The position numbers were made by a program, and so were the translations under genes. A stretch of DNA of 64,000 nt, taken from positions 186,001 through 250,000 of the IMG/VR virus record IMGVR_UViG_3300035698_035366; one strand, 5' to 3'. Shown in pieces: positions 1 to 62,937 of this stretch; position 1 is the first letter of the stretch; every line of letters begins with the position of its first letter. Under the pieces are notes generated by a model. It worked only from the letters and a program-made list of their open reading frames with translations, had not been told where the DNA came from and did not search any database. Source of the stretch: a virus.

Positions 1-837
1 ACCAACAGTAACAGCGCGGGCAACTTCAGCAGGCATAACATCGTAACCAACTTCTGCAAGATCCCTGCCATCGTTACCAGCAGCAACAACACAAATTATT
101 CCTGCATTGATGCAGTCATTTACAACCTGTTCTTCGGTCTTGTGTGCTGGCCCACCAAGTGATAGGTTCATAATGCTTGGGTTCATATTACCTTGAGCAC
201 GCTTATTACGGTGATGCTTTAGGCACGCATCAATTCCAGAAACGATAGCAGCAAGAGAAGCACCACCAGTTTCAAACACCTTACTAATAAGAAGATTGCA
301 TTCCTTAGCTACGCCATACTTCACCCCACCAACTGTAGATGCAACATGAGTTCCATGTCCCTGTTGATCAAACCCATAACCTGTTTGTCCTTTCTTCGCA
401 TAGTAATCGAAGATTGGAACAGCGCGGCCTTGGAAATCATTATGAGAAAAGTTACAACCAGTATCAACTATATAAACGTCAACATTTTTTCCTGTTCGGT
501 TATATTCGTATTTTCCATTAAATGGGTACCAGTTGCTATCATTCCATTCGTCACCGTGTGTAATTCTACTTAGTCCCCAATTATCACCAAAACCATATCG
601 GGAAACAGCAATATTCTGAATAGCTTTAAATTCAACAATAGCATCCGCGGGTGCGACATGTTCGATCTCTCGTTCAGTTTTCAACTTGGTCTTTTTCATA
701 TCGTCCATTGTAATTTTGAACATACGCTCTAAACCACGATAATCTTCGTCAATCGTAGCGTTATATCTAGAAGCTAGATTTTTGAATCTTTGGTTACTAC
801 AACCCATTTTAACTGTTACGATATATTCTTTGTTCAT
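1..837 (-). CDS. Subtilisin-like serine protease (S8), C-terminus outside window
   Basis: The minus-strand frame is open from ATG at 837 to the window edge (279 codons), so the 3' part of the gene is missing. Residues 1-65 look like an I9-type inhibitory propeptide. The catalytic Asp is in VDTG (D125) and the catalytic His in HGTHVAS (H161). The oxyanion-hole Asn is in AAGND near residue 260. The catalytic Ser should lie beyond base 1. A Shine-Dalgarno AAGGAG precedes the start. No signal peptide is seen, so it may act inside the cell or in the virion. Family assignment is firm; the biological substrate is unknown. Confidence 0.9.
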   Translation of the reverse strand, partial: MNKEYIVTVKMGCSNQRFKNLASRYNATIDEDYRGLERMFKITMDDMKKTKLKTEREIEHVAPADAIVEFKAIQNIAVSRYGFGDNWGLSRITHGDEWNDSNWYPFNGKYEYNRTGKNVDVYIVDTGCNFSHNDFQGRAVPIFDYYAKKGQTGYGFDQQGHGTHVASTVGGVKYGVAKECNLLISKVFETGGASLAAIVSGIDACLKHHRNKRAQGNMNPSIMNLSLGGPAHKTEEQVVNDCINAGIICVVAAGNDGRDLAEVGYDVMPAEVARAVTVG

Positions 838-920: not shown

Positions 921-1188
921 TGTAAATGCTTGATGCTAATAATAGCAAATCAGGACCCGGGCTCGTTCCCGGCATCTCCACCAACACTTCGGTGGCATCT
1001 CTTTTTTATGGGGATGAAAGGTTCGACTGGTGCGTGAAAGTTTAGTTTAGTTTACATCGGATTGGTGAGCCGACCACAAAGTAACCCGTTTTAAATGCAA
1101 ACGACAATGCTCCCGTACAGGAAATGCGCCTAGCGGCCTGATCCTGGTAGGGAAATTCCGGAGACGAATGCGATCTTCGGTGGAGTTT
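921..1188 (+). ncRNA. ssrA: Two-piece (circularly permuted) tmRNA
   Basis: The acceptor piece comes first: a T arm (957-972, 6-nt loop), acceptor strand CATCTCC (973-979), A73 and encoded CCA (981-983). A 26-nt spacer follows. The coding piece then begins with GGGGATG (1010-1016), which pairs with CATCTCC over 7 bp and forms the G3-U70 wobble expected for alanine charging. The resume codon GCA is at 1097. The tag reads ANDNAPVQEMRLAA and ends in TGA at 1139-1141. Permuted tmRNAs are known from alphaproteobacteria and a few other lineages, and tags starting ANDN are typical of alphaproteobacteria. Outer ends are approximate. SmpB is encoded at 49690. Confidence 0.93.
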
Positions 1189-4472: not shown

Positions 4473-5132
4473 ATGAATACACCAGAAAAATATCCTAGGA
4501 CTTTACATTGGCCTGAAAGTGAAACTATTCACGCCGATGATAAGACCCACACCGATCCAGAATTTTTTATCGGCAAGCAAGTCGTAATAACAGAGAAACT
4601 AGACGGCGGGAATACCTGTCTCTATAATGGTAAGGCATATGCCCGATCAACCACAATGGAAGCTGGTGATGGGTGGTTTGCGATGGTCAAAAAGCATCAT
4701 GCATGGAAGACTACAAACATTGATCGCTATGCCTATTATGGTGAGGATTTATATGGCATTCATTCTATTGAGTATGATGCACTGGATGAGGGAGAAACGT
4801 TTCGTCTATTCGCTGTTCTCGACAATGAGACTAATATGTTTTTGCCTTGGGAAGAAGTCGTTCAACATGCGGTACAGAATGATTTCCTTACGGTTCCTGT
4901 AATTCACCCAGGTGGAGTATTTTTCAGTGTTCAGGAGATTACGGATTGGTTTAAGGTTGCAATGGAATATGGTTCAGAACTCGGAGATACTACTGAAGGT
5001 TTTGTTCTTCGACTAGCAGATGAAATACCATTTGATAAATTTGGTATTCAAGCATGTAAGTATGTCCGCAGAAATCATGTTCAAACTGATCAGCATTGGA
5101 GGAAAAACTGGAAGGCCTGTAAATTAACATGA
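4473..5132 (+). CDS. RNA ligase, Rnl2/DRB0094-like
   Basis: 219 residues. Nucleotidyltransferase motifs are in order: motif I EKLDGG (K42 is the likely AMP-accepting lysine), motif III around YGEDLYGIHSI, motif IV EGFVLR, and motif V CKYVRRNH. Length and motifs fit a compact ATP-dependent RNA ligase without a large C-terminal domain. It would seal 3'-OH/5'-P RNA ends and could repair cleaved tRNAs with the kinase at 10846. The transcript is predicted to be leaderless. The next gene starts 4 nt before its stop. Confidence 0.85.
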   Translation: MNTPEKYPRTLHWPESETIHADDKTHTDPEFFIGKQVVITEKLDGGNTCLYNGKAYARSTTMEAGDGWFAMVKKHHAWKTTNIDRYAYYGEDLYGIHSIEYDALDEGETFRLFAVLDNETNMFLPWEEVVQHAVQNDFLTVPVIHPGGVFFSVQEITDWFKVAMEYGSELGDTTEGFVLRLADEIPFDKFGIQACKYVRRNHVQTDQHWRKNWKACKLT

Positions 5133-6033: not shown

Positions 6034-6972
6034 ATGTCAAGCATCGATGGCGGTAAGCCTCCTTACCAAGGTATTAGAACGTTTATGCGTTCAACTTATA
6101 CACAGGATTTAACGGATGTTGATATTGCTGTAATTGGCATTCCTTTAGATTTAGGGACGACTAATCGCCCAGGAACACGGATGGGACCAGCTGATATACG
6201 TGATGTTAGTTTGCGACGTTGTTCCGGTGACAATCCCCGTTATGGGTGTAATCCCGTTAATTATGCAAAGATTGTAGACTATGGTGATCTTAATTTGGTA
6301 CTTGGTGATATTACAAAAAGCGTTGATTTAATTTCTATCCAAATGGAACAAATCTTAAAATCTGGAGTTCATCCGGTTATACTTGGGGGTGACCACACTA
6401 TCACTTATCCAATCCTAAAAGCGTTTTATCAACAAAATCAACAGCCAATGGCCATCGTCCATTTTGATGCTCATCATGATTATTGGTCAGAAAACTATGG
6501 CGCACCAATTGCCCATGGAACATGGCTTTATCATGCAGTACAGGAAGGGTTGGTTGATGTAGAGAATTCTTTCATGCTTGGTATACGTTGCCCTTCGGAA
6601 CCAACCCACGTTGAAAATCTCCGAAACTTGGGGATGACAGTTTGGGATTACGATTTTGTCCATGAGAAAGGAATGGCCGAAATTGCTCGAAGAATAGATT
6701 TCAAATTAAATGACACACCAGTTTATCTTACCTTCGATGTTGATGGACTCGATCCAGCTTATGCTCCAGGAACCGGAACGCCTGAACCGGGAGGATTTAC
6801 TACTCAAGAAGCAATGCTCCTTTTACATGGTTTAAGAAATCTAAACTGGAAAGGTATGGACGTTGTTGAGGTTTCTCCGATGTATGATGTTGGTCAAATA
6901 ACTAGCCTAGCGGCATGTTCAATAGCATGGAACTATATTTCTGGTATAGCACCAAGTATTGGTACCAAATAA
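6034..6972 (+). CDS. speB: Agmatinase/arginase-family ureohydrolase
   Basis: 312 residues, full length for the family. All metal-binding motifs are present: GGDH (H121), FDAHHD (D145, H147, D149) and TFDVDGLDPAYAPGTG with its two aspartates. The enzyme would hydrolyse agmatine (or a related guanidino compound) to putrescine and urea using two Mn2+ ions. GGAG lies 8 nt upstream of the start, inside the end of the previous gene. Polyamine synthesis could help package DNA or support translation. Substrate choice among ureohydrolases cannot be settled by eye. Confidence 0.88.
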   Translation: MSSIDGGKPPYQGIRTFMRSTYTQDLTDVDIAVIGIPLDLGTTNRPGTRMGPADIRDVSLRRCSGDNPRYGCNPVNYAKIVDYGDLNLVLGDITKSVDLISIQMEQILKSGVHPVILGGDHTITYPILKAFYQQNQQPMAIVHFDAHHDYWSENYGAPIAHGTWLYHAVQEGLVDVENSFMLGIRCPSEPTHVENLRNLGMTVWDYDFVHEKGMAEIARRIDFKLNDTPVYLTFDVDGLDPAYAPGTGTPEPGGFTTQEAMLLLHGLRNLNWKGMDVVEVSPMYDVGQITSLAACSIAWNYISGIAPSIGTK

Positions 6973-9760: not shown

Positions 9761-10501
9761 ATGGAGAATAAAATGAAATTGAATGATTTAAATCCTTTGT
9801 TCGTCGACCTCGACGGTGTTATGGCTGATTTCGATAAGAGAATCATTGAGCTAACTGGTCGACCCGCCTCTGTGCAGGGTCAAACGTTTTGGCATAAAAT
9901 TGCTGATTTGGTAATTTCTCCCGGTAGCGAACGTGGTGTGGTCTTAAAACGTGCGTCAAAGAACGCTGCCAATTCAGTCGATGATTTGGGATTCATTAAG
10001 GGGAAGGGATCAAAGGTTGTTGGGATAATGGTCAAGGAAGGTCTTCTGGACAAATTTGATATTCCAGGAATTGGCATTCGCTATACGCTAACCAAGCGTG
10101 GCGAACTGGCCTATCATGAAGTTGCCGCAGGTCAGACATTCAAGGGCGGACCAGATTTCTATAACAGCTTGGAAAAAATGCCCGATGCTGACCAGCTTTG
10201 GTCTGTTGCAAAAACCATGAATCCTGTCATTCTAACCGGAAAGCCGATGGGTAATTGGGCCGAAGGACAGAAGCGTGCATGGGTTGCACGTGAACTTGGG
10301 TCAAACGTTCCGGTGATCGTTTGCATGGCCAGGGAAAAGGCTGCAAAGGCTGCCGAGTACATGGGAACACCAACTCTTAACGGGGCAATTCTTATCGACG
10401 ATCGAGAGAAGGCCCGGGCACCTTGGGAAGCCCTTGGTGGACGATTTATCCTTCACACCAGTGCATCTAACTCGATTGCCCTTTTACACGGCCTAGAGTA
10501 A
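9761..10501 (+). CDS. HAD-family phosphatase with inserted domain
   Basis: About 246 residues from ATG 9761; an in-frame ATG at 9773 has GGAG 6 nt before it, so either start is possible. HAD motifs: DLDGVMADFD (D16, D18), ILTGKP, a Lys near REKAAKAA, and LIDDREKA. This resembles phage 5'(3')-deoxynucleotidase-like or polynucleotide 3'-phosphatase-like proteins. Between FWHKIAD and GGPDFYNSL is an extra segment of roughly 75 residues that ends in GIGIRYTLTKRGELAYHE and resembles a winged helix. It sits upstream of the P-loop kinase, suggesting a role in nucleic-acid end or nucleotide processing. Confidence 0.8.
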   Translation: MENKMKLNDLNPLFVDLDGVMADFDKRIIELTGRPASVQGQTFWHKIADLVISPGSERGVVLKRASKNAANSVDDLGFIKGKGSKVVGIMVKEGLLDKFDIPGIGIRYTLTKRGELAYHEVAAGQTFKGGPDFYNSLEKMPDADQLWSVAKTMNPVILTGKPMGNWAEGQKRAWVARELGSNVPVIVCMAREKAAKAAEYMGTPTLNGAILIDDREKARAPWEALGGRFILHTSASNSIALLHGLE

Positions 10502-10809
10502 TGACCAAGAGTCGAATGGGCTTTCTTGCTAGAAAGCTTCGATATCAGCCACCCAAACCAGACGCAAACCGCCGATCAATATCGTGTGAGTATGCCACAT
10601 GGAACTGTGTTAAAGTTTTGCAACGGCGTTATGGCTTTGTTACCCCTGGGAGGCCAGCGTCATCTAAAGTAGATGATGAAAAATCACTTGAAAAAATGGT
10701 TGAATGGTGTAAGACTGAAATCGAAGGAAGATGGTTTTTAAACTCTAACCGATTCTTTTATTTTGAAAACAAAGATGATGCTATCATGTTTAAGTTGGTT
10801 AATTTTTGA
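10501..10809 (+). CDS. FKL-tail family protein with basic N-terminus
   Basis: 102 residues; the first A of its ATG is the last base of the previous stop. Basic N-terminal half (ARKLRYQPPKPDANRR), then MVEWCKTEIEGRWFLNSNRFFYFENKDDAIMFKLVNF, a textbook example of the tail. Confidence 0.6.
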   Translation: MTKSRMGFLARKLRYQPPKPDANRRSISCEYATWNCVKVLQRRYGFVTPGRPASSKVDDEKSLEKMVEWCKTEIEGRWFLNSNRFFYFENKDDAIMFKLVNF

Positions 10810-26485: not shown

Positions 26486-27739
26486 ATGTCAGACTTAGGT
26501 GATAATGCGGCTTCCACGCCACCAGAATGTTCATTCTGTGATAAAAATTCTCTTGAAGTATCAAAAATGATTGCTGCCGCTCAAGAAGGTGTGTATATAT
26601 GCGACGAATGTATTGAATTGTGTATGGAAGTTCTAAAACAAGATAAATCAACTGATATTGAAATTGACGGAGAAATACCAACTCCAGAAGAACTAAAAGA
26701 ATTTCTAGATCAATATGTTATTGGTCAGGATTATGCTAAAAAAGTCATCTCTGTTGCGGTTTATGACCATTATCGCCGTCTTGATAATCCAATTATTGAC
26801 GATGTTGAAATTGAGAAATCAAACATACTGCTTTGTGGTCCAACTGGCTCAGGGAAGACCCATATAGTTAAGACAATTGCTCGTATGCTTGATGTACCAT
26901 ATTATATCGCTGATGCCACTTCATTAACTGAAGCGGGTTATGTTGGGGATGACGTTGAATCTATTCTTTACGGATTGATGCAAGCCGCCGATCAAGACAT
27001 TAACCGTGCCCAGCGCGGAATTGTATTCATCGATGAAATTGATAAAAAAGGAACTAAATCGGGCTCGGCAAATATTACACGTGATGTTTCGGGCGAAGGA
27101 GTACAGCAAGCACTTTTGAAGATGATTGAAGGGACTGTTGCTCGTGTTCCAACAACTGGTGGCAGGAAACATCCACAAGGTGAAGTAGTGGAAATTGATA
27201 CAGCTAACATTTTGTTCGTTGTTTCTGGAGCATTCATTGGTCTTGATAAACTTGTATCTAAACGCATGAATAAAGGATACACATCGCTAGGATTTGCAAA
27301 TAAGAAAGAGCGACCAGACGAAGGCAAATCAATGGGTGAGATTTTAGAAAACATTGAACCAGAAGATTTAATAGAATATGGCTTAATCCCAGAACTTATT
27401 GGTCGTTTGCCAATTGTTTGCGGGCTTGACGAACTGACAGAAGAGCAGCTAGTGCAGATTCTAATTGAACCAAAAAATGCTCTTGTTAAGCAGTTTAAAG
27501 CTATGTTTAGTTTGGAAAAAGTTGAGTTGAAATTTAATGATGATGCGTTGGTTGAAATCGCAAGAATTGCTAAGAACCGTAAGACTGGCGCCCGCGGTTT
27601 GCGAGCCGTGCTCCAAAGGGCATTATTAAGCACGCAATTTCAAATACCTACAGCGGCAAAAGCAAAACCACCACTAAAGAATGTTACAGTAACTTATGAA
27701 GCGGTTACTGGTGAAGAAGAACCCAAATTGGATTATTAA
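26486..27739 (+). CDS. clpX: ClpX ATPase
   Basis: 417 residues, full length. N-terminal zinc-binding domain with two C-x2-C pairs (CSFC, CDEC). AAA+ motifs: Walker A GPTGSGKT, Walker B VFIDEID, pore-loop GYVGDDVE, sensor region ending ARGLRAVLQRALL. ClpX unfolds tagged proteins and feeds them to ClpP, encoded here at 37391. With the phage tmRNA tag ending LAA it forms a complete degradation route. Shine-Dalgarno AAAGGAAA is upstream. Confidence 0.96.
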   Translation: MSDLGDNAASTPPECSFCDKNSLEVSKMIAAAQEGVYICDECIELCMEVLKQDKSTDIEIDGEIPTPEELKEFLDQYVIGQDYAKKVISVAVYDHYRRLDNPIIDDVEIEKSNILLCGPTGSGKTHIVKTIARMLDVPYYIADATSLTEAGYVGDDVESILYGLMQAADQDINRAQRGIVFIDEIDKKGTKSGSANITRDVSGEGVQQALLKMIEGTVARVPTTGGRKHPQGEVVEIDTANILFVVSGAFIGLDKLVSKRMNKGYTSLGFANKKERPDEGKSMGEILENIEPEDLIEYGLIPELIGRLPIVCGLDELTEEQLVQILIEPKNALVKQFKAMFSLEKVELKFNDDALVEIARIAKNRKTGARGLRAVLQRALLSTQFQIPTAAKAKPPLKNVTVTYEAVTGEEEPKLDY

Positions 27740-27802: not shown

Positions 27803-28327
27803 ATGAAAACCGATAGCGAAGACAATATTAAAGTCAATGGTGAAATTACCGCAGCTAATGTAAGGCTGCTTGATGTGGAAGGCGAGGCACTTGGTGTGGT
27901 TACTATCAACCAAGCAACAAACCTAGCAAGGAATGCAGGACTTGACTTGGTTGAGATTGTCCCTCATGCTGAGCCCCCTGTTTGCCGCATGATGGATTTT
28001 GTTAAATTCAAGTATGAACGCAAAAAATCCAAACGTGAGCAAAATCGTAAAAATAGGGAAAACCGTACGGTTGTTAAGGAAATTCAATTCCGCCCCAATA
28101 CGGAAATACATGACATTAATAACAAAACTCGTCAAGCAATTGGTTTTTTGGAGAAGGGAAACCACGTGCGTTTCGTTGTCAAGTTTCGTGGGCGCGAACT
28201 TTCCTATACCGAGAAGGGTGATGAACTTCTAAATCAAGTTCTTTCTACTCTTGGTGATGTGACTGTTGATCAAGAACCAAAAATGATTGGTCGAAATATG
28301 GTCTTGACGGTTTCACCTGCCAAGTAA
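27803..28327 (+). CDS. infC: Translation initiation factor IF-3
   Basis: 174 residues with both IF3 domains: N-terminal NGEITAANVRLLDVEGEALG and DLVEIVPHAEPPVCRMMDF..KFKYE, basic linker, then C-terminal KEIQFRPNTEIHD, GNHVRFVVKFRGREL and PKMIGRNMVLTVSP. Normal bacterial length. It starts with ATG rather than the rare AUU used in many bacteria, so the usual autoregulation is not expected. It could bias host ribosomes toward phage messages. Confidence 0.96.
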   Translation: MKTDSEDNIKVNGEITAANVRLLDVEGEALGVVTINQATNLARNAGLDLVEIVPHAEPPVCRMMDFVKFKYERKKSKREQNRKNRENRTVVKEIQFRPNTEIHDINNKTRQAIGFLEKGNHVRFVVKFRGRELSYTEKGDELLNQVLSTLGDVTVDQEPKMIGRNMVLTVSPAK

Positions 28328-28799: not shown

Positions 28800-29243
28800 A
28801 TGGACATCGAATACATCAAAGGCAATTTATTTGAGACTGAACATAAAGTTATTGTTCATGGCTGTAATGCAATGGGCCGTATGGGATCTGGTGTTGCTCG
28901 TATTGTCAACAATGACTTTAATGAAGCTTATCAAGCTTATCGATCGGAATTCGAAACAACTGGTCTAGAACTTGGCACAGTTGTTTGGGCTGAATCGAAT
29001 GGTTATATGTTTGCCAATGCCATTACTCAGGACCGTTTCGGGCATGATGGGAAAAATTATGTTAACTATGATGCTATTCGAGCATGTATGGAAGAAGTAC
29101 ATGGGTATTGTGTAGCGCATGGTTATAGCCATGCAGCAATGCCAATGATTGGTGCTGGATTGGGTGGCGGAGACTGGGAAATCATTTCCAATATCATTGA
29201 AGTAGCGTTTATTAATGTCCAGCCAGTTGTTTATGTAATCTAA
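28800..29243 (+). CDS. Macro-domain protein (ADP-ribose-1''-phosphatase-like)
   Basis: 147 residues forming a single macro domain: VIVHGCNAMGRMGSGVA (the N-A-x-G ligand loop), and MPMIGAGLGGGDWEII (the second glycine loop). It belongs to the Poa1p/Appr-1''-p-like group. Such proteins bind or hydrolyse ADP-ribose species, including the by-product of tRNA 2'-phosphate removal, or reverse ADP-ribosylation. Either role, RNA repair or defence reversal, is possible. Confidence 0.85.
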   Translation: MDIEYIKGNLFETEHKVIVHGCNAMGRMGSGVARIVNNDFNEAYQAYRSEFETTGLELGTVVWAESNGYMFANAITQDRFGHDGKNYVNYDAIRACMEEVHGYCVAHGYSHAAMPMIGAGLGGGDWEIISNIIEVAFINVQPVVYVI

Positions 29244-35489: not shown

Positions 35490-35750
35490 ATGGCGATAGA
35501 TGAAAATTTGAAAGTAGATAATTGGTTTTCGTATTCCTTGTTCCTTGATTCATTTGTCCAAAAGGAATCAAATGGTATATATTTTCTTTCTCCTGAAATT
35601 ATGGAATGGTTATGTGAAACCGTTGAATATCCAATCGAAACTGAAGGCTTCGATGAAGAGGGGTTTTCTCTTGGGTTTGGATTGTATTTTGAAAAAAATG
35701 AAGATGCAACCCTATTTCGATTGACGTGGTGTAATGATAAAGATAAGTAA
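35490..35750 (+). CDS. FKL-tail family protein
   Basis: 86 residues. IMEWLCETVEYPIETEG, then FGLYFEKNEDATLFRLTWCNDKDK. The next gene starts 17 nt before its stop. Confidence 0.6.
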   Translation: MAIDENLKVDNWFSYSLFLDSFVQKESNGIYFLSPEIMEWLCETVEYPIETEGFDEEGFSLGFGLYFEKNEDATLFRLTWCNDKDK

Positions 35751-36465
35751 AGAGCTTGAAGAATTATTAGTTCGAGACGATATATCTAATCAAATCTTCC
35801 ATGAACGATATATTTCCGTCAATCAATTGATAATCAATGGTGGGACACCGAATTCGGTGAGGATAGCTTATGCATTCGATGGATCATATGTGGGAACATT
35901 CAATGAGCACCTTATTATTGGTATAATTGATAAATTTCAAATTACTCCACAGCGTGCATTCCCTGAAGCAACCATATCTAAATTAGGCTGGAGTGATTTG
36001 ACAAATAAATGGTATGCATGGAATCGGGCTACATATAATAGCTTTACAATAGGTAGCCAAATTACAAAAAAAGATTTAGGATATATTCCAGATAATAAAG
36101 ATGAGTTTTTAATAGCCACGAAACGTTTTTGGGAGGATGCATGGGAGACTCCTAGAAGAAAGAAGGATGTCATTGCTATACATGATACAGAATTTGAAAA
36201 TGTATATGAAGACGAAGTCGAAGTTATGGATGAGAAAACTGGCTTAATGAAAATACACAGTGAAATTAAAAAAGGTGGGAAACTCCTTCATGGTGTCCGT
36301 GTTTCTTGGACCTATACACATGATGTTCCTAATGAAACATTAAGAGGTCAACCTGGAGGAAACTTTACCCCATATCCGAAGAATTGGGGAAGGGGAGAAT
36401 GGACCGCATTAACTATGGATGACGCTAAACAAATGGCTATGGATTTTGTAAGAAGTTTAAGTTAG
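35734..36465 (+). CDS. Conserved phage protein, unknown
   Basis: 243 residues. KWYAWNRATYNSFTIGSQI and WTYTHDVPNETLRGQPGGNFTPYP..WGRGEWTALTMDDAKQMA match a family of uncharacterised phage proteins with Trp-rich W-x-Y-x-V-P and F-T-P-Y-P signatures. Stop is TAG, close to the promoter of the structured RNA. Confidence 0.6.
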   Translation: MIKISKELEELLVRDDISNQIFHERYISVNQLIINGGTPNSVRIAYAFDGSYVGTFNEHLIIGIIDKFQITPQRAFPEATISKLGWSDLTNKWYAWNRATYNSFTIGSQITKKDLGYIPDNKDEFLIATKRFWEDAWETPRRKKDVIAIHDTEFENVYEDEVEVMDEKTGLMKIHSEIKKGGKLLHGVRVSWTYTHDVPNETLRGQPGGNFTPYPKNWGRGEWTALTMDDAKQMAMDFVRSLS

Positions 36466-37390: not shown

Positions 37391-37957
37391 ATGTCAAAAG
37401 CAACTGTGGCGGAAAGTTATACATTACCTGAGTTATCTCAGCATGGGGTCCATTTTCTGAATGAAGGAATAACTGACAAATCTTGCGGTCAAGCAATAAA
37501 TTATATTCTGCGTGCCAACATGGATCCAAGTTGTCCGTGGAAACATATCCAGTTAATTATTAATTCTGGGGGCGGATATGTTGATTCTGGTTTTGCTTTG
37601 ATTGATGTTATGGAAACAAGTAAAATACCAGTTAGAACTCTTGGGCTTGGTACCATTGCTTCAATGGGGTTATTAATTTGCATGGCAGGTGATAAAGGCA
37701 ACAGAGCAGTAACGCCAAAAACAATGATAATGAGCCACCAATTTGCCGGTGGTGCATTCGGTAAACAACACGAACTTGTTTCATCAGCGATACATCATGA
37801 TTGGGTAGGTGATACAATTTTAAAACATTATAAAAAGCATACTGGGTTAACTGAAAAAGTAATCAAAGAAAAATTGCTTCCTGAATCTGATACATGGTTG
37901 ACCGCAACCCAGGCAAAAAAATATAAATTAATAGACAGAATTGCCAATTCATATTAA
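37391..37957 (+). CDS. clpP: ClpP protease
   Basis: 188 residues. Catalytic triad visible: Ser91 in GTIASMGLLI, His116 in MIMSHQFAGG, Asp167 in LLPESDTWLTATQAKKYKLID. IINSGGGYVDSGFALIDVM is the usual ClpP core. No propeptide is evident. Partner ATPase is ClpX at 26486. The order of triad residues and length are normal for ClpP. Confidence 0.95.
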   Translation: MSKATVAESYTLPELSQHGVHFLNEGITDKSCGQAINYILRANMDPSCPWKHIQLIINSGGGYVDSGFALIDVMETSKIPVRTLGLGTIASMGLLICMAGDKGNRAVTPKTMIMSHQFAGGAFGKQHELVSSAIHHDWVGDTILKHYKKHTGLTEKVIKEKLLPESDTWLTATQAKKYKLIDRIANSY

Positions 37958-48498: not shown

Positions 48499-49431
48499 AT
48501 GGATAATCAATGCAGGACTACGGAAGAATTATATGATGAATGTAATCGGATCGTTAAGGAATCTGAACATGTATCAATCACACCATCCAAATATGTAAAT
48601 TTTGATCATGCGTTTGTGGAGAACCCAGAGCCAGTTTCAATGGTGTGGTACCTAAGTGAAGATACAGATGATCACCAACAGGCGTTTGGTGAATTTATAG
48701 TTTCTTCCGCCTTTAATGGTGGTTACTGGTATGATACAGATCCCGTAACACAATGGGAAGTAAATGGTTCCGGTAGCATGGCTATGGAAAAATGGATACG
48801 TGAGGAATTATTCAATAACGGCCTTCATCCATATCATTGCCAAGACCGTCAAAAAGTTATAAAGAAGCTTTATCCAAGTCTTGATTTGCAGCCAAATGCA
48901 GCACATCGAAAAAGAATTATATCTGAACTTGCGTTTAATAACCGTCGATTTGCAGAACCCATTATGCGTCAAAGACACACAAATCGAGAAGAATACACTT
49001 TCAATTGGCTCGATGTTTCATTTTTAGCAGATTGCTTACCTGAATCATTTGGTGGAGATCCGTATTTGAAAAAGGCTTGTTTAGTATATCTCATATTTAC
49101 GGGTTGGCTTCGATCAAAGGGTATTAAAGTTACTGCTGATTTCCCAATCCCAACCGATTATCAAATGCCACGAATTTTCCAATATGAAGGAGCAATTGAT
49201 ATTACAGTAGCTTTTGAAAACGAATTGAATGCCGGGAAGCTTGTTGATGTAACATCACCAGAAGTAATGGCTTTTAGAGCAGCGGGAATTGTTGTCGCAC
49301 ATGAACTTGCTGAACGTTATGGTCTCGATGATTACCAGATTGATAATGTACTGTTTAGTCTGTATCGCAAAGACGAAAACTTCATAAAAAACTCTGTAAA
49401 ACCAATGCGTTGCATGAGCATGTGGTTCTAA
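48499..49431 (+). CDS. Unknown enzyme-like protein, possibly queuosine-salvage (DUF2419)-like
   Basis: 310 residues, mixed alpha/beta. SSAFNGGYWYDTDPVTQWEVNGSGS, KKACLVYLIFTGWL and TADFPIPTDYQMPRIFQYEGAI loosely follow the pattern of queuosine 5'-phosphate N-glycosylase proteins (aromatic substrate pocket, D-x-x-I-P, D-Y-x-x-P). The match is by eye and weak. A queD homologue is present at 15354. Otherwise uncharacterised. Confidence 0.35.
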   Translation: MDNQCRTTEELYDECNRIVKESEHVSITPSKYVNFDHAFVENPEPVSMVWYLSEDTDDHQQAFGEFIVSSAFNGGYWYDTDPVTQWEVNGSGSMAMEKWIREELFNNGLHPYHCQDRQKVIKKLYPSLDLQPNAAHRKRIISELAFNNRRFAEPIMRQRHTNREEYTFNWLDVSFLADCLPESFGGDPYLKKACLVYLIFTGWLRSKGIKVTADFPIPTDYQMPRIFQYEGAIDITVAFENELNAGKLVDVTSPEVMAFRAAGIVVAHELAERYGLDDYQIDNVLFSLYRKDENFIKNSVKPMRCMSMWF

Positions 49432-49689: not shown

Positions 49690-50136
49690 ATGACAAACAT
49701 TACAACAAACCGCCGCGCGAAATTTGACTACGAACTGGAACAATCCTACGAAGCGGGGATTGAGCTCGTTGGTTCAGAAGTTAAGACTCTTCGAACTCGT
49801 GGAGCCAGCATTGTCGAATCATATGTAGAGGTCAAAGACGACGAATGTTGGTTAATTAATGCTAACATTGAACCATATGAACCAGCTAGGATTAATCATG
49901 AGCCAAAGCGTCGCCGGAAGCTTTTGTTGCACCGGCGTGAAATCGACCAGATGACAGTGAAAGTTCAACAGCGTGGATATACTATTGTCCCAGTAAAAAT
50001 GTATTTTAATTCCAGAGGCCGAGTGAAGATTGAAATTGCTATCGGCAAGGGGAAGCATACATATGATAAGAAAAGGGCTATTCGTGATCGTATAGTTGAT
50101 CGAGAAACCCAACGAGAGATGAAGAATTTAGGTTAA
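49690..50136 (+). CDS. smpB: SmpB, tmRNA-binding protein
   Basis: 148 residues. NRRAKFDYELEQSYEAGIELVGSEVK, YVEVKDDECWLINANIEPYE, RRRKLLLHRREIDQM and a basic C-terminal tail (YDKKRAIRDRIVDRETQREMK) are all SmpB hallmarks. It escorts tmRNA to stalled ribosomes. The phage thus encodes both halves of trans-translation. Start codon sits at the expected transcription start. Confidence 0.96.
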   Translation: MTNITTNRRAKFDYELEQSYEAGIELVGSEVKTLRTRGASIVESYVEVKDDECWLINANIEPYEPARINHEPKRRRKLLLHRREIDQMTVKVQQRGYTIVPVKMYFNSRGRVKIEIAIGKGKHTYDKKRAIRDRIVDRETQREMKNLG

Positions 50137-51398: not shown

Positions 51399-52340
51399 GT
51401 GGATTGGTTAAACTACCTGTACCATAAAAATCCCGATTTAGCGAAGAAAGAAATACTTCAAGTTAAGTCTGAAGAGAAATTTTTAGAACAAAGCTATAAT
51501 CTTCTTGCGAATGCCGTAAAAAACACTTCAAACGCGGTCGATGATCTTATATCAGGTGATAATGATCCATTATTTAAAACCAAGCGTAGAATTAATGCTA
51601 TGGGACATTTAATACATGATGTAATTGCGGTGACATCCAAAGATGGAACGATTGATACAATATCAAATAAATGCAATGCAATGTTTGGCCATGACGAAGA
51701 ATATTACATTGGGGAAAACATCAGTGAACTTTTTGCTATTAGTGTTAGAGAACAACATTTTGGCTATTTTAATGGTGATATGCCATATGACCATGATACG
51801 AACCCAACCATTGAAACAATTATGTGTCGTGGTGATCATTCAGAATTTTATGCTGAATTTACAATAGAAAAATTTGAGGAAGACGATGAATGTATGTTTA
51901 TGATAATAATACGTGATATCACTTCTAGAAAAGATGATGAAGGAAAACTTCAAGAAGCCAAAAGAAATGAAAACTTCCACCGAATGTTAGCAACCTGTCT
52001 AGATCACATTGACGATATGGTAATCCTGGTTAATGCGGAAAAAAACGCGGTATATGTTAATAAAGCATTCACTGATCATTATGGATTTTGCCTCGATGAT
52101 ATCGTTGGAAAAAGACCACGGGATGTCATCGGAGAACTCCCAATTAATCCAGAATTATATGAAAATATATATAGTGATTATTTGGATAACGGCCTTATAT
52201 GGACAGGGCAATTACCTAATAAAACTAAAAATGGTAATGGTGTTATTGACGATATTAAAATTATTCCTATAATGGGTGATGATAACAAGCCACAATTTTA
52301 TCTTTCCATCCATAAATTAGTGGTTGACAATTCTGTATAA
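51399..52340 (+). CDS. Tandem PAS-domain protein
   Basis: 313 residues. Two PAS domains: about 70-175 (DVIAVTSKDGTIDTISNKCNAMFGHDEEYYIGENISEL, ending IIIRDITSRK) and about 195-308 (DDMVILVNAEKNAVYVNKAFTDHYGFCLDDIVGKR). No histidine kinase, GGDEF or helix-turn-helix domain follows. It may sense a ligand or redox state and act by protein contact, possibly with the small membrane protein just upstream. Start is GTG at 51399. Confidence 0.8.
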   Translation: MDWLNYLYHKNPDLAKKEILQVKSEEKFLEQSYNLLANAVKNTSNAVDDLISGDNDPLFKTKRRINAMGHLIHDVIAVTSKDGTIDTISNKCNAMFGHDEEYYIGENISELFAISVREQHFGYFNGDMPYDHDTNPTIETIMCRGDHSEFYAEFTIEKFEEDDECMFMIIIRDITSRKDDEGKLQEAKRNENFHRMLATCLDHIDDMVILVNAEKNAVYVNKAFTDHYGFCLDDIVGKRPRDVIGELPINPELYENIYSDYLDNGLIWTGQLPNKTKNGNGVIDDIKIIPIMGDDNKPQFYLSIHKLVVDNSV

Positions 52341-58881: not shown

Positions 58882-58954
58882 CGCCCCATAGTTTATCGGT
58901 TTAGAATTCCGGTTTTTCACACCGGCGAGCGGGGTTCGATTCCCCGTGGGGCGA
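58882..58954 (+). tRNA. tRNA-Glu(TTC)
   Basis: Acceptor CGCCCCA/TGGGGCG, anticodon loop TTTTCAC, T arm CGGGG-TTCGATT-CCCCG, A73. The next three bases are CCC, so CCA must be added or has mutated. Confidence 0.85.
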
Positions 58955-58970
58955 CCCAGTTAAAATTTAT

Positions 58971-59043
58971 AGCGGGTTGGAGAAGTAGTTATCTCGACGT
59001 CCTCATAAGGCGTAGGTCGGCAGTGCAATTCTGTCACCCGCAA
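58971..59043 (+). tRNA. Initiator-like tRNA-Met(CAT)
   Basis: Anticodon loop CTCATAA. Initiator traits: unpaired A1-A72, A11-U24 in the D stem (GAGA/TCTC), A73. It lacks the full run of three G-C pairs at 29-31/39-41 of the anticodon stem. T loop TGCAATT. CCA is not encoded (CAA). Confidence 0.75.
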
Positions 59044-59047
59044 CAAA

Positions 59048-59152
59048 ACTTGGCTCTCGACTGACCGTCCCGATATTAAGAGCAAAGGTCATATGATATT
59101 TAATTATCTGCCACAAGCAGATATGAAGGTCATTAAAAAATTGCCGCCAAGT
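59048..59152 (+). other. Structured tRNA-like spacer element
   Basis: ACTTGGC (59048) and GCCAAGT (59146) could close a 105-nt domain holding ATCTGC/GCAGAT and TGACC/GGTCA helices. It has no T loop. Possible tRNA remnant or small RNA. Confidence 0.35.
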
Positions 59153-59159
59153 ATTTTAT

Positions 59160-59234
59160 GCTCCGTTAGCTCATTGGTGGAGCGGGACACTGAAGATGTC
59201 CGCGTAGGTAGTTCGATTCTATCACGGAGCACCA
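59160..59234 (+). tRNA. tRNA-Phe(GAA)
   Basis: Perfect cloverleaf: GCTCCGT/ACGGAGC, GCTC/GAGC, anticodon loop CTGAAGA, T loop TTCGATT, A73, CCA encoded. Confidence 0.92.
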
Positions 59235-59240
59235 ATTTAT

Positions 59241-59316
59241 GCCTTTCAAGCTAATCTAGAGAAAGCGACGGATTGAAGACCCGTAGAGCCTGGAGCGTAA
59301 CCAGGGAAAGGCACCA
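59241..59316 (+). tRNA. tRNA-like, variant T loop (anticodon reads GAA)
   Basis: GCCTTTC/GAAAGGC acceptor, A73, CCA encoded. Anticodon loop TTGAAGA with an A-C mismatch at its base, three-pair D stem without GG, and T loop AGCGTAA instead of TTCRANY. Possibly degenerate. Confidence 0.55.
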
Positions 59317-59346
59317 AACATTATTTGGTCACTGCAAAGTGTGTTA

Positions 59347-59402
59347 GCGACGGCTAATAGTTTAGGTGAGTATAGCACTCTTAAAGGGTACAGAACCGTC
59401 GC
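59347..59402 (+). other. Stem-loop element between tRNAs
   Basis: GCGACGG (59347) pairs with CCGTCGC (59396), enclosing 42 nt with a GTG/CAC hairpin. Too small for a tRNA. Confidence 0.35.
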
Positions 59403-59420
59403 CTAATGCCAATGTTTTAT

Positions 59421-59505
59421 AAGGGTTGATCCTGCCCGCGGTATCAAACCCGTGGTCTTGAATAAGGCAGGAAGCAGGACGAGGGGAGCGTTACCTCCAA
59501 CCTTT
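59421..59505 (+). other. tRNA-like element, non-cloverleaf
   Basis: AAGGGTTG/CAACCTTT forms an 8-bp end stem. TCCTGCC/GGCAGGA encloses a CGCGG/CCGTG hairpin with loop TATCAAA. A T-like hairpin has loop AGCGTTA. No D arm. Remnant or unusual small RNA. Confidence 0.4.
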
Positions 59506-59515
59506 GCTAATTTAT

Positions 59516-59595
59516 AGGGGTGCCTGTATCGGTGAACTAAGCCGTCTCCAAAACGGTGCTTCGGCCTGGGAGTTCGAATCTCTCCACCCCTGCCA
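59516..59595 (+). tRNA. tRNA-Trp(CCA)
   Basis: AGGGGTG/CACCCCT, anticodon loop CTCCAAA, T loop TTCGAAT, G73, CCA encoded. The variable region is longer than usual (about 10 nt). Confidence 0.85.
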
Positions 59596-59604
59596 ATATA
59601 ATAT

Positions 59605-59686
59605 GGGAAGGTAAAGCTAGTGGCTCTAGCAAGTGGTCTGTAAAACCACTCTCTTCGGGGGCGAGGATCGATACCTCACTTTCCCA
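59605..59686 (+). tRNA. tRNA-Tyr(GTA)
   Basis: GGGAAGG/CTTTCCC, D arm GCTA/TAGC, anticodon loop CTGTAAA, long variable arm as expected for Tyr, T loop ATCGATA, CCA encoded. Confidence 0.85.
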
Positions 59687-59689
59687 CCA

Positions 59690-59890
59690 ATTAAAGCAGA
59701 TACAGTCAATAAACATTCTGCCGTAGACACCATGTGTTGGGCGCAACTCATGTTGAAAACGGGTGACCCTGTTGAGACTATATGAAGGACTTGGTCTCCT
59801 TTAATCTGCACATGGCCAGAGAATATCGAACGAGGTGGTGGCTGATCCTGTCCGGGATGGGCCGTATGTTTCATACCGGGGGCCACCCTA
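59690..59890 (+). other. Structured spacer before second tRNA-Glu
   Basis: GCAGAT (59695) pairs with ATCTGC about 110 nt later, with small GAGAC/GTCTC and CAAC/GTTG hairpins inside. It is followed by a GGTGGC/GCCACC domain next to the tRNA. The same kind of hairpin precedes the first tRNA-Glu. No ORF. Confidence 0.4.
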
Positions 59891-59891
59891 A

Positions 59892-59969
59892 CGCCCCATA
59901 GTTTATCGGTTTTAGAACGCCGGGTTCTCAACCCGGAAAGCGCGGGTTCAACTCCCCGTGGGGCGACCA
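59892..59969 (+). tRNA. tRNA-Glu(CTC)
   Basis: Acceptor CGCCCCA/TGGGGCG identical to the first Glu gene, anticodon loop TTCTCAA, T loop TTCAACT, A73, CCA encoded. The T stem has a mismatch or bulge. Confidence 0.82.
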
Positions 59970-59978
59970 AAATAATAC

Positions 59979-60006
59979 TTGACAATAAATTGGATGTTGT
60001 TATAAT
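59979..60006 (+). promoter_or_regulatory. Internal promoter of tRNA cluster
   Basis: TTGACA (59979-59984), 16 bp, TATAAT (60001-60006). Confidence 0.85.
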
Positions 60007-60012
60007 ACTTAA

Positions 60013-60250
60013 ATACTGTTCGTTAATTGGACAGATTTACAACCGGGGAACTAGTCCACTACGACGCCGGAAACATTGTAAATCCCGAAAGACGATTTAG
60101 TGTGATGGTTATAAGGTTAGACGGTGTCGGTATGTGGTCAACCCGCCCGTGACGTTATAATCACAGCGCAGGCTGGAGGCCTTAATGCGGGACGCAGGTA
60201 CCCGAGGTGAGATGATAGGCCGTTAGTGGATAGGATGGGATCCATTTATT
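60013..60250 (+). ncRNA. Structured leader RNA upstream of tRNA-Cys
   Basis: About 240 nt, no ORF, own promoter. GATTTACAA/TTGTAAATC (60034-60084) with an inner CCGG/CCGG helix; TGTGAT-gg-TTATAA with TTATAATCACA (60101-60165). It may be an independent small RNA or a processed leader. Confidence 0.5.
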
Positions 60251-60255
60251 TTTAT

Positions 60256-60330
60256 GTTCCTGATGCCGACGAAGTGAGGCCTTGGATTGCAAATCCAAAG
60301 TACCGGATGCAAGCGCCGGCGGGAACTCCA
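60256..60330 (+). tRNA. tRNA-Cys(GCA)
   Basis: GTTCCTG/CGGGAAC, D arm GCC/GGC, anticodon loop TTGCAAA, T loop TGCAAGC, T73, CCA encoded. Confidence 0.87.
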
Positions 60331-60339
60331 AAACAATAC

Positions 60340-60368
60340 TTGACACTTATAAATAGATGTGTTAGTAT
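60340..60368 (+). promoter_or_regulatory. Sigma70-type promoter
   Basis: TTGACA (60340-60345), 17 bp, TAGTAT (60363-60368). Confidence 0.7.
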
Positions 60369-60430
60369 TACAGAATAAGCATTGCGCTTATAACGCCATA
60401 ATGGCAGTCAACATGATAAAGGAAAAGACA

Positions 60431-60769
60431 ATGGAATTAACAACTCAACATCAAGCTTCGATTTATAAAGGCATTGGTCACGTAATTGGGGCCATCCCAA
60501 CCAAAGCATTTAGACTTCATAACAATTTGCGGAATGTCAACCGATCAGTTCGGTTTTATGACAAATATGGAAACTCCATGTTATTTTCCGGTAATGAAAT
60601 CTGCACCAACGATACTCTTAATCAACAAGGTGCTAGGTTGAATGTCGGTGAAGCAGGCCAAAAATACTCCTTGATTTGGCCAGATGACTTGGAAAAATTC
60701 AGGGAGATGTTCCAATACGACGTTTCAAAGAAAAATGAAGTATTAATCGAAATCGTATCAATATTCTAA
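60431..60769 (+). CDS. Unknown protein within tRNA cluster
   Basis: 112 residues from ATG 60431 with AAAGGA 7 nt upstream; earlier in-frame starts precede the predicted transcription start or lack a ribosome site. MELTTQHQASIYKGIGHVIGAIP, then RSVRFYDKYGNSMLFSGNEI and a C-terminal helix. Not recognised. Confidence 0.55.
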   Translation: MELTTQHQASIYKGIGHVIGAIPTKAFRLHNNLRNVNRSVRFYDKYGNSMLFSGNEICTNDTLNQQGARLNVGEAGQKYSLIWPDDLEKFREMFQYDVSKKNEVLIEIVSIF

Positions 60770-60777
60770 TTCAACAA

Positions 60778-60875
60778 TTTGCATTACAGTCCACAGCGTT
60801 CAAGAGCTTAGGCATTAGGTGGCTACTGTGGTTGAACCCGTTCAAATCGGGTTAAGAGACTCTTGATAATGCAAA
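60778..60875 (+). other. tRNA-like structured RNA with one good T arm
   Basis: Outer stem TTTGCATTA/TAATGCAAA (9 bp). Inside, CCACAG/CTGTGG and TCAAGAG/CTCTTGA interleave, and AACCCG-TTCAAAT-CGGGTT (60835-60853) is a canonical T arm. The interleaving suggests a pseudoknot. It could be a tRNA relic. Confidence 0.45.
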
Positions 60876-60883
60876 GATTTTAT

Positions 60884-60959
60884 GGACCATGACTCAGCAA
60901 GGAACGAGACCTGCTTTACATGCAGGATTTGCGGGGAGCGTTACCTCGATGGTCCACCA
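60884..60959 (+). tRNA. tRNA-Val(TAC) with variant T loop
   Basis: GGACCAT/ATGGTCC, D arm CTC/GAG with GG, anticodon loop TTTACAT, T stem CGGGG/CCTCG but loop AGCGTTA, position 8 is G, CCA encoded. Confidence 0.8.
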
Positions 60960-60964
60960 AATTA

Positions 60965-61101
60965 TGAGGTAGTTGGCTAGGTTGGCGGTTCGACTCCGTC
61001 GTTCCTGATGGTCAGGTGTGGTTCGAGTCCACGTTAAATTAAGCGGAAAACAAATAGGGTAGCACCCGCCTATTAAGGTTCAACTCCTTAATACCTCACC
61101 A
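60965..61101 (+). tRNA. Composite tRNA-like locus with three T arms
   Basis: TGAGGTA (60965) pairs with TACCTCA (61092), followed by CCA. Inside are three T-arm hairpins: GGCGG-TTCGACT-CCGTC, GTGG-TTCGAGT-CCAC and TTAAGG-TTCAACT-CCTTAA. No single cloverleaf fits. Likely fused tRNA fragments. Confidence 0.45.
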
Positions 61102-61172
61102 ATATAGTGTGCGCCAAATGGCGAAGGCTCGGTCGCTCCGAGCATCTTGCGGGCCAAATTGGCCCGCATTAT

Positions 61173-61248
61173 CCGGGTGTGGGAAAGTCTGGCTTAATCC
61201 GTTCGCTTTGGGAGCGAAAGACCGCAGGTTCAAATCCTGCCCCCCGGA
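61173..61248 (+). tRNA. tRNA-Pro(TGG)
   Basis: CCGGGTG/CCCCCGG (one mismatch), anticodon arm TTCGC-TTTGGGA-GCGAA, T arm GCAGG-TTCAAAT-CCTGC, A73. CCA not encoded (CAG). A perfect TGCGGGCC/GGCCCGCA hairpin lies just upstream. Confidence 0.85.
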
Positions 61249-61268
61249 CAGAGAAATTATAAACATAA

Positions 61269-61344
61269 CAGGGTATAGCTCAATCTGGTAGAGTAGGGGC
61301 CTCGGAAGCTTCGGGTGCCGGTTCGAATCCGGCTATCCTGACCA
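61269..61344 (+). tRNA. tRNA-Pro(CGG)
   Basis: CAGGGTA/TATCCTG, D arm GCTC/GAGT, anticodon loop CTCGGAA, T loop TTCGAAT, CCA encoded. Confidence 0.9.
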
Positions 61345-61354
61345 ATAAAACAAT

Positions 61355-61439
61355 GGGTGGCGCAGCTAATGCGATGTCTGGGACCGACGCGGGCTCTTAA
61401 TCCGTGAACCAAGGGGTTCAATTCCCTCGCCACCCGCCA
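61355..61439 (+). tRNA. tRNA-Lys(CTT), enlarged D region
   Basis: GGGTGGC/GCCACCC, anticodon loop CTCTTAA, T loop TTCAATT, G73, CCA encoded. The D region is about 8 nt longer than normal. Confidence 0.78.
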
Positions 61440-61445
61440 ATTTAT

Positions 61446-61527
61446 CCCTGAGTGGCGGAACGGTATACGTAGCGAGCTTAAACCTCGTGGCTTCGGCATG
61501 TGAGTTCGACTCTCACCTTAGGGACCA
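61446..61527 (+). tRNA. tRNA-Leu(TAA)
   Basis: CCCTGAG/CTTAGGG, anticodon loop CTTAAAC, long variable arm, T arm GTGAG-TTCGACT-CTCAC, CCA encoded. Confidence 0.9.
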
Positions 61528-61537
61528 ATAAAATAAT

Positions 61538-61613
61538 GGACCGGTAGCTCAGAGGCAGTAGCGACGGGCTCTTAACCCGTAGGTCGAGATTTCGAAATTC
61601 TCCCGGTTCACCA
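61538..61613 (+). tRNA. tRNA-Lys(CTT), second copy
   Basis: GGACCGG/CCGGTTC, anticodon arm ACGGG-CTCTTAA-CCCGT, CCA encoded. Sequence differs from the other Lys gene. Confidence 0.87.
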
Positions 61614-61619
61614 AAAATA

Positions 61620-61648
61620 TTGACATTAAACATAGATATGTGTATAGT
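61620..61648 (+). promoter_or_regulatory. Internal promoter of tRNA cluster
   Basis: TTGACA (61620-61625), 17 bp, TATAGT (61643-61648). Confidence 0.75.
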
Positions 61649-61664
61649 TTATAAATACAAAATT

Positions 61665-61750
61665 GCCTGAGTGGCGGAACCGGTATACGCGAAGGTCTCA
61701 AAAACCTTTGTCCTTGCGGCATGTGAGTTCGAATCTCACCTCAGGCACCA
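61665..61750 (+). tRNA. tRNA-Leu(CAA)
   Basis: GCCTGAG/CTCAGGC, anticodon arm AAGGT-CTCAAAA-ACCTT, long variable arm, CCA encoded. Confidence 0.92.
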
Positions 61751-61793
61751 ATATATAAATTTAGGCAGGATTAATCCGTAAGTCCTATTTTAT

Positions 61794-61872
61794 GCCCGAG
61801 TGGTCAAATTGGTAAAGACGTCCGCCTAAGAAGCGGAAGATTTTGTGGGTTCGAGTCCCACCTTGGGCACCA
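61794..61872 (+). tRNA. tRNA-Leu(AAG)
   Basis: GCCCGAG/CTTGGGC, anticodon arm TCCGC-CTAAGAA-GCGGA, T loop TTCGAGT, CCA encoded. A34 in a Leu tRNA is unusual for bacteria. Confidence 0.88.
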
Positions 61873-61968
61873 ATAGATTTTTGTTCGATTGTGCGGCTGG
61901 TCCCAAACAATCGTTCAAGAGAAGACCAGTTGAACGCAAACTGACCAGAGTGCGTTATTAAACTGGAG

Positions 61969-62033
61969 GCCGTCGTCTAAAAGAAAGGACGCCCCCGTTG
62001 AGGGGGAAATGGTGGGTGCGAGTCCCCTCGGCA
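61969..62033 (+). tRNA. Degenerate tRNA-like, possible Gln(TTG)
   Basis: GCCGTCG pairs 5 of 7 with CCTCGGC. D arm GTC/GAC, anticodon stem CCCC/GGGG with loop CGTTGAG, T-like loop TGCGAGT with a poor stem. No CCA. Probably decayed. Confidence 0.4.
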
Positions 62034-62058
62034 AAGTGCTTCTTACATAAATAGTTAT

Positions 62059-62283
62059 ATGAGATACGAACACATCATACAAGAAGAACCAGTTATATCA
62101 AGTTGGATTTCAGATCTAACGTATGATGATGGTGACGTGATCATGGCATTAAATTCAGGGCGTGAATATCAAATACAAGATGTTCCGTTAGATGTTTATG
62201 AATCATGGATGGAATATGGTTCAAAAGGTCAATTTTGGCACGGGTATATCCGTGGTATGTACCAAGTTTGGCGAATTGCTTAA
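62059..62283 (+). CDS. KTSC-domain protein
   Basis: 74 residues. SSWISDLTYDDGDVIMALNSGREYQIQDVPLDVYESWMEYGSKGQFWHGYIRG fits the KTSC pattern (short beta protein with G-x-x-Y-x-Y-x-x-V-P and S-x-G-x-[FY]). The domain is often found beside RNA-processing proteins such as lysyl-tRNA synthetases; its role is unknown. It sits inside the tRNA cluster. Confidence 0.75.
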   Translation: MRYEHIIQEEPVISSWISDLTYDDGDVIMALNSGREYQIQDVPLDVYESWMEYGSKGQFWHGYIRGMYQVWRIA

Positions 62284-62311
62284 ATTTACAATACAATTAT
62301 ACTTATACTGA

Positions 62312-62388
62312 TCCTAGCGGTCCCTGTCGGCAAGGGAGCGGCGCTGTTAACGCCGTTGTTCCAGGTTCGAGCCCTGGGCTAGGAGCCA
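62312..62388 (+). tRNA. tRNA-Asn(GTT)
   Basis: TCCTAGC/GCTAGGA, anticodon arm CGGCG-CTGTTAA-CGCCG, T arm CCAGG-TTCGAGC-CCTGG, G73, CCA encoded. Confidence 0.9.
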
Positions 62389-62528
62389 AATTTGTTCAGA
62401 CCTGATTTGCAAGTCAACTGAACATCGCTCGGACGATGGGCTTCATGAGCTTATCACATGCGAATTAAAATGGCTTTAACTGCGGCCGCGGTTGACTCCA
62501 GGAGATTTGCTTCCGAGCAACCAATTAT

Positions 62529-62612
62529 GCGACGCGTAGGCGAGAAGGTTCTGCCGCTGGGCTTCCACCCCAGTCCGAAAGGTGTAGGGTTCGATTCCCT
62601 CGCGTCGCTCCA
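62529..62612 (+). tRNA. tRNA-Gly(TCC)
   Basis: GCGACGC/GCGTCGC, anticodon arm CTGGG-CTTCCAC-CCCAG, 11-nt variable region, T73, CCA encoded. Confidence 0.87.
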
Positions 62613-62620
62613 ATATAATT

Positions 62621-62779
62621 TTCTCTGTAGCTTAATGATCTTCATTGATGACGGTTCCGACGGGAACGGAATGAAGGCCGCAAGGCGTTGCAATGGTCTA
62701 GAACATTGTGTTAGTCGCCGATAAAAGGGCAGAGCGCCACCCGCGGAGGTTGGAGGTAGGGTTCAATTCCCTTAGAGAA
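62621..62779 (+). tRNA. tRNA-like with about 90-nt D-loop insertion
   Basis: TTCTCTG/TAGAGAA acceptor, GCTT/GAGC D stem, T arm with TTCAATT. The D loop holds nested hairpins CTTCATT/AATGAAG and GTTCC/GGAAC, plus CAATG/CATTG. The anticodon loop (CGCGGAG) lacks T33. No CCA. Confidence 0.4.
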
Positions 62780-62787
62780 TTTAGTTT

Positions 62788-62861
62788 GCTCCTGTGATGT
62801 TCTGGGAACATATCCGGCTGTCTACCGGACGAGGTGGGTTCAATTCCCATCAGGAGCGCCA
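62788..62861 (+). tRNA. tRNA-Asp(GTC), copy 1
   Basis: GCTCCTG/CAGGAGC, anticodon arm TCCGG-CTGTCTA-CCGGA, T loop TTCAATT, G73, CCA encoded. Confidence 0.9.
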
Positions 62862-62864
62862 ATT

Positions 62865-62937
62865 GGGCGTGTGGTGAAGCGGTTAACACAGTGGATTGTC
62901 TATCCACCATTCGCAGGTTCAAGTCCTGTCACGCTCG
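62865..62937 (+). tRNA. tRNA-Asp(GTC), copy 2
   Basis: GGGCGTG/CACGCTC, D arm GTG/CAC, anticodon arm GTGGA-TTGTCTA-TCCAC, T loop TTCAAGT, G73. CCA not encoded (CAA). Confidence 0.88.

Follow-up and report, generated by a model that had tools for sequence, protein, structure and literature searches.

A phage genome carries a gene for a circularly permuted tmRNA together with genes for SmpB, ClpX and ClpP, and during infection the phage most likely performs trans-translation, and degrades the proteins so tagged, with components of its own. We analyzed a stretch of 64,000 nucleotides (the window), corresponding to positions 186001-250000 in a virus record of 296,119 bases (IMG/VR record IMGVR_UViG_3300035698_035366); phage genes in the record include baseplate and topoisomerase genes. 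Unless stated otherwise, positions refer to the window and features are on the plus strand. The tmRNA gene, at 921-1219, is phage-encoded, two-piece and of the alpha type. This RNA with its parts, SmpB, ClpX and ClpP1 are all identifiable from sequence. The phage itself is T4-like, has 296 kb and is related to jumbo phages of Agrobacterium and Sinorhizobium.

An earlier note had proposed a phage-encoded two-piece permuted tmRNA, and a covariance search (cmscan) bore this out, with two Rfam models matching above their gathering cut-offs. RF04321 (tmRNA_permuted) matched 921-1141 with 79.8 bits (gathering 47; E 1.2e-13) over all 213 model positions, and RF01849 (alpha_tmRNA) matched 868-1219 with 76.3 bits (gathering 50; E 6.2e-19) over all 355 positions. 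ARAGORN reported no tmRNA gene at this locus when run on the window. The order of the parts was as the note had described it, with the acceptor piece and its encoded CCA preceding the coding piece. The acceptor piece (921-983), placed by both Rfam alignments and by a structural scan, comprises the 5' strand of P2 (UGUAAA, 921-926), the T-arm (957-972) with a 6-nt loop (CUCGUU, 962-967), the acceptor 3' strand CATCTCC (973-979), A73 (980) and the CCA (981-983). cmscan and the structural scan located a 26-nt intervening sequence at 984-1009, the removal of which would leave two pieces, and the coding piece at 1010-1188. The latter contains the acceptor 5' strand GGGGATG (1010-1016), the D-loop GGTTCGAC, the 3' strand of P2 (UUUACA, 1051-1056), the tag region and the 3' part. 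All seven pairs of the acceptor helix were found by reading the sequence and in the structural scan, including the alanine identity pair G3-U70 that the note had pointed out; A73 is present as well. The tag also proved readable. From a GCA resume codon at 1097, the frame (1097-1141; sequence and structural scan) encodes ANDNAPVQEMRLAA (1097-1138), ends in hydrophobic LAA-like residues and closes with UGA (1139-1141).

The intervening sequence contains GGTGGCATCTC. By sequence reading, its GGTGG (991-995) is pairable with the CCACC acceptor end in the precursor, and CATCTC (996-1001) repeats the acceptor 3' strand, which together with the GGTGG pairing gives an alternative precursor fold. We attach no weight to this acceptor-strand copy, its frequency over the phage tmRNA set being close to chance.

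A promoter-like element (886-916), read from the sequence, ends about 5 nt upstream of the acceptor piece. It consists of TTGACT (886-891), a 17-nt spacer and TATAAA/TATAAATA (909-916), and is likely the tmRNA promoter; counted to the end of TATAAA (886-914), it stops about 6 nt short of 921. Note that a consensus promoter scan overlooked this element because a T was demanded at position 6. A role of TATAAATA as a T4-type late promoter was considered and rejected: 13 occurrences were found in the window versus 8.4 expected, and the enrichment was not significant. On the 3' side, the earlier note had ended the gene at 1188. The coding piece does end there, but a GC hairpin of 7 bp, GGAGGGC (1189-1195) with GCCCTCC (1210-1216), and its T-rich tail GTTTTATT lie just beyond (1189-1224). 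This hairpin is inside the RF01849 match (to 1219), is present in the MFE fold and is likely a terminator or the 3' hairpin conserved in alpha-type tmRNAs.

These features also bear on whether the gene could be a host ssrA fragment carried as an attachment site for integration, or could stem from faulty assembly. Although phages and other elements often integrate at ssrA (see also PMC9004378), the gene here is complete, has its own promoter-like element and lies 187 kb into the 296-kb phage record. Moreover, no tyrosine integrase was detected, and many related phages carry a permuted tmRNA. We consider this explanation extremely improbable and largely refuted.

A structural scan covering related viral loci yielded 102 distinct permuted tmRNAs. 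The scan asked for acceptor pairing and a GG start but not for a G-U pair at position 3; G3-U70 and A73 were nevertheless common to all 102, and acceptor pairs 4, 5 and 6 varied with changes on both sides. Among 83 distinct tags, 77 start with ANDN and 65 end in LAA, in a set that favours canonical tags since the scan demanded GCAAACGA at the tag start. The T-loop has 7 nt in 99 of the 102 tmRNAs, 6 nt in two (the tmRNA described here being one) and 8 nt in one. Thus, a 7-nt T-loop is not strictly defining. T-loops of the set mostly read GGCRGUA rather than the TTCRANN of tRNA, so that departures in the T-loop alone are not fatal. For the pseudoknot PK1 before the tag, the best H-type candidate pairs UCGG with CCGA and GGU with ACC, but half of the shuffled sequences matched it, and the pseudoknot is without statistical support in what was a weak test. 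The model score of 79.8 bits is low compared to most relatives (13 tmRNAs from related phages score 73-134 bits).

The 6-nt T-loop and the weak pseudoknot would fit a tmRNA that has decayed, or one that acts as a decoy by tying up host SmpB or ribosomes but adds no tag. A precedent exists in the CDS-less tmRNA of phage DS6A, which inhibits endogenous tmRNA (PMC11915505). However, the DS6A form has no tag. The tmRNA here has an intact CCA, G3-U70, resume codon and tag frame, and its promoter-like and terminator-like elements are intact as well, as would be unexpected for a relic. We consider decay or a decoy role improbable.

Permuted tmRNAs of phages are an established kind of RNA and not rare in viral metagenomes, and the present gene is a further example of those already published. 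The statement of the earlier note that phage tmRNAs are rare, and a permuted one rarer, was overstated: 53 of 133 distinct tmRNA structures from 402 phages are two-piece (PMC9004378), and our scan adds about 100 (102 distinct ones). In the paper on RF04321, 79 phage tmRNAs are listed (PMC11915505). Searching IMG/VR for exact matches to the start of the tag found at least 120 stretches, and 13 of 20 sampled stretches had an RF04321 match above cut-off. We found no match by blastn for relatives of the window tmRNA in phages and plasmids, and no close copies by exact-pattern search of IMG/VR; a search for kin with a 755-aa ORF also found none.

We then examined phages encoding ClpX, sampling 21 sizeable contigs (G002-G021 and G026). 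A permuted tmRNA was present above cut-off in 12 of the 21 and ClpP in 17. The alpha model applied to most of these tmRNAs and the beta model to three, a split that points to repeated acquisition. The earlier note had proposed capture from an alphaproteobacterial host. This is compatible with the match of the window tmRNA to the alpha model and with the closest cultured phages, which infect Agrobacterium and Sinorhizobium. Recent capture from a host is not established: as permuted tmRNAs of both alpha and beta types are widespread in the ClpX-bearing set, long residence in phages or repeated exchange among them is equally likely.

The larger find, outside the region covered by the earlier note, is that SmpB and ClpXP are encoded along with the RNA. 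SmpB, the tmRNA-binding partner in trans-translation (148 aa; 49690-50136), matched PF01668 with about 185 bits and, at full length and equivalog level, the NCBIfam models NF003843 (188.7 bits; cut-off 130) and TIGR00086 (173.3 bits; cut-off 119.1). Its E values against SmpB chains in the PDB reached 8.6e-40. In the tree it stands alone on a long branch and is not placed with the Alphaproteobacteria. The best of the matches listed in plasmid and chromid records was from Sphingomonas (50%), and a search of genome contigs returned mostly Bacillota, probably an effect of the peptide patterns used. Two genes upstream of smpB, the product of 48499-49431 has a weak match, below cut-off, to a queuosine salvage protein (PF10343, 17.4 bits).

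Among the 21 ClpX-set contigs, SmpB exceeded the cut-off only in G008, a 523,836-bp (~524-kb) IMG/VR record, although absences are weak given unsure record completeness. G008 encodes a permuted tmRNA, SmpB, ClpX and ClpP, and is the only contig of the set that pairs a permuted tmRNA with SmpB. Its tmRNA tag reads ANDNVFAMAA (loci L255/L250/L181). The SmpB of G008 groups within a gamma/beta branch (100/99) to which the window SmpB does not belong. With the two proteins on different branches, SmpB was probably gained separately and came to accompany a phage tmRNA on two or more occasions.

The unfoldase ClpX (417 aa; 26486-27739) matched TIGR00382 with 540.5 bits (cut-off 370.75) as well as Pfam domains. 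Alignment to solved ClpX showed that the zinc-binding domain, Walker A/B motifs, GYVG pore loop and GGRKH loop are kept, with LGF aligned at the position of the ClpP-docking IGF tripeptide. In E. coli ClpX, the GYVG pore and RKH loop read the LAA end. Directly 3' of clpX lies the gene for translation initiation factor IF-3 (27803-28327; TIGR00168, 180.7 bits, cut-off 60; PF05198/PF00707). A canonical ClpP1 is encoded outside the window at record positions 10157-10768 (TIGR00493, 321.4 bits, cut-off 308.6), and its alignment retains the Ser-His-Asp active-site stretches of ClpP. SmpB, ClpX, ClpP1 and IF-3 are thus all above their NCBIfam equivalog cut-offs. A divergent second ClpP-like protein (188 aa; 37391-37957; PF00574, E 7.8e-35) is below every NCBIfam cut-off and apparently retains the triad residues. 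The genes for the tmRNA, SmpB, ClpX and ClpP1 are scattered far apart on the genome and form no single operon.

ClpX also has roles unrelated to tmRNA. The phage RNA could merely top up trans-translation that uses host SmpB and ClpXP, with the phage SmpB, ClpX and ClpP serving other ends, such as virion proteolysis or control of replication. Consistent with this, clpX adjoins topoisomerase and IF-3 genes in many such phages, and a replication role has been proposed for the clpX of phage AP-J-162 (PMC11242549). Furthermore, SmpB was not detected in Sinorhizobium phage Phosso, nor in 10 or more of the other ClpX-set contigs that bear a tmRNA (IMG/VR absences being weak, with completeness unsure). 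As most tmRNA-bearing relatives are without SmpB, host SmpB must usually suffice. What a topping-up role leaves unexplained is the presence of smpB in both this phage and the 524-kb phage, from different branches. We regard this role as unlikely.

The explanation that accounts best for the data overall, and which we consider probable, is a processed, alanine-charged tmRNA that acts with SmpB and ClpXP, of phage or host, in tagging and degradation. Cleavage of a single precursor RNA by tRNA-processing enzymes would yield the coding piece and an acceptor piece with a CCA end, held together by P2 and the acceptor helix. The tmRNA would be charged via G3-U70 by the host's alanyl-tRNA synthetase, and SmpB of the phage (or host) would bring it to ribosomes that have stalled on cleaved mRNA. 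Translation would then switch to the GCA resume codon, append ANDNAPVQEMRLAA and stop at UGA, after which ClpX and ClpP, from the phage (or host), would degrade the tagged protein via its LAA end. The phage may benefit by keeping ribosomes free and recycling amino acids while mRNA is cleaved in the infected cell. Note that we infer processing, charging, the use of the phage's own partners and the benefit to the phage. In favour of this explanation are the two Rfam matches, the conservation of G3-U70 across the 102 tmRNAs, the intact tag frame, the equivalog-level partner proteins and the second phage with the same combination; the 6-nt T-loop, the low model score, the weak pseudoknot, the other roles of ClpX, the scattered genes and the lack of SmpB in most tmRNA-bearing relatives count against it. 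A stronger version is conceivable, though rather doubtful: the two-piece tmRNA, a matched SmpB, ClpX and ClpP could form a self-contained pathway that replaces or outcompetes that of the host, the altered T-loop and divergent SmpB being a matched, host-independent pair.

Several other genes of the window were noted. An RNA ligase (4473-5132; PF09414, 72 bits) and a cluster of 15 tRNA genes (58882-63858; ARAGORN), among them Leu (aag) and a tandem pair for Asp (gtc), are present; the ligase together with the tmRNA and tRNA genes suggests that the phage may face RNA-cleaving defences. The product of 35734-36465 matched Tad6, a type I Thoeris inhibitor (PF25188, 77.5 bits, E 1.4e-21), and is a probable anti-defence protein. 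Near ClpX and IF-3, a macro-domain protein (28800-29243; PF01661, E 2.6e-8; weak ThsA_Macro match) possibly binds ADP-ribose or the Thoeris signal. The window also encodes a complete arginase-family enzyme (6034-6972; PF00491, 293 bits), an unusual phage cargo, and a sensor-like 313-aa protein with PAS domains (51399-52340; PF13426, two stretches). A subtilisin-like S8 protease (1-837, minus strand; PF00082, 64 bits) is encoded upstream of the tmRNA and runs off the window edge.

In the usual view, phage tmRNAs depend on host SmpB and protease. With a phage that encodes the RNA along with its partner protein and protease, it becomes possible to address directly if ribosome rescue is carried out by phages themselves, and if they are thereby protected against mRNA cleavage by the host or its defences. 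In the large set of jumbo phages with ClpX that was surveyed, permuted tmRNAs of both alpha and beta types proved common. In the literature searched, which was incomplete, we found no published description of a phage with a two-piece tmRNA and its own SmpB.

By ClpX and topoisomerase, the nearest named jumbo-phage kin are Phosso (Sinorhizobium) and Atu_ph07 (Agrobacterium), with topoisomerase identities of 59% and 55%, respectively. The group of Phosso, AP-J-162 and Atu_ph07 shares the gene order topoisomerase II-ClpX-IF-3, which recurs in many IMG/VR contigs, and has ClpP as here. Phosso has a permuted tmRNA (113 bits), whereas none was found in Atu_ph07; neither phage was among the organisms listed and tallied for SmpB matches. 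For the Sinorhizobium phage AP-J-162, a tmRNA and clpX have been reported (PMC11242549).

The RNA resembles the two-piece tmRNA of Alphaproteobacteria (RF01849/RF04321) in gene order, encoded CCA, G3-U70, D-loop motif, resume codon and ANDN...LAA tag, but differs in being phage-encoded and in its 6-nt T-loop and short intervening sequence of 26 nt. The alphaproteobacterial form was reportedly first demonstrated in Caulobacter. The ssrA of Methylophilales phage Melnitz is likewise phage-encoded, permuted and of alphaproteobacterial affinity (PMC9004378). It was reported with a glutamine riboswitch, whereas Rfam calls none in the window, and the same paper names smpB once, as a pathway component. 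A general account of huge phages carrying tmRNA and SmpB already exists (PMC7162821). As here, SmpB occurs with tmRNA and ClpP in the Lak megaphages of Prevotella and in other huge phages (PMC7162821), and Lak-A2 and Lak-B5 also encode ClpX, like this phage. However, the Lak SmpB lies on a different tree branch from the window SmpB, and Lak-A2, Lak-B5 and LR756504 combine SmpB and ClpP with a standard one-piece tmRNA, in contrast to the two-piece form described here.
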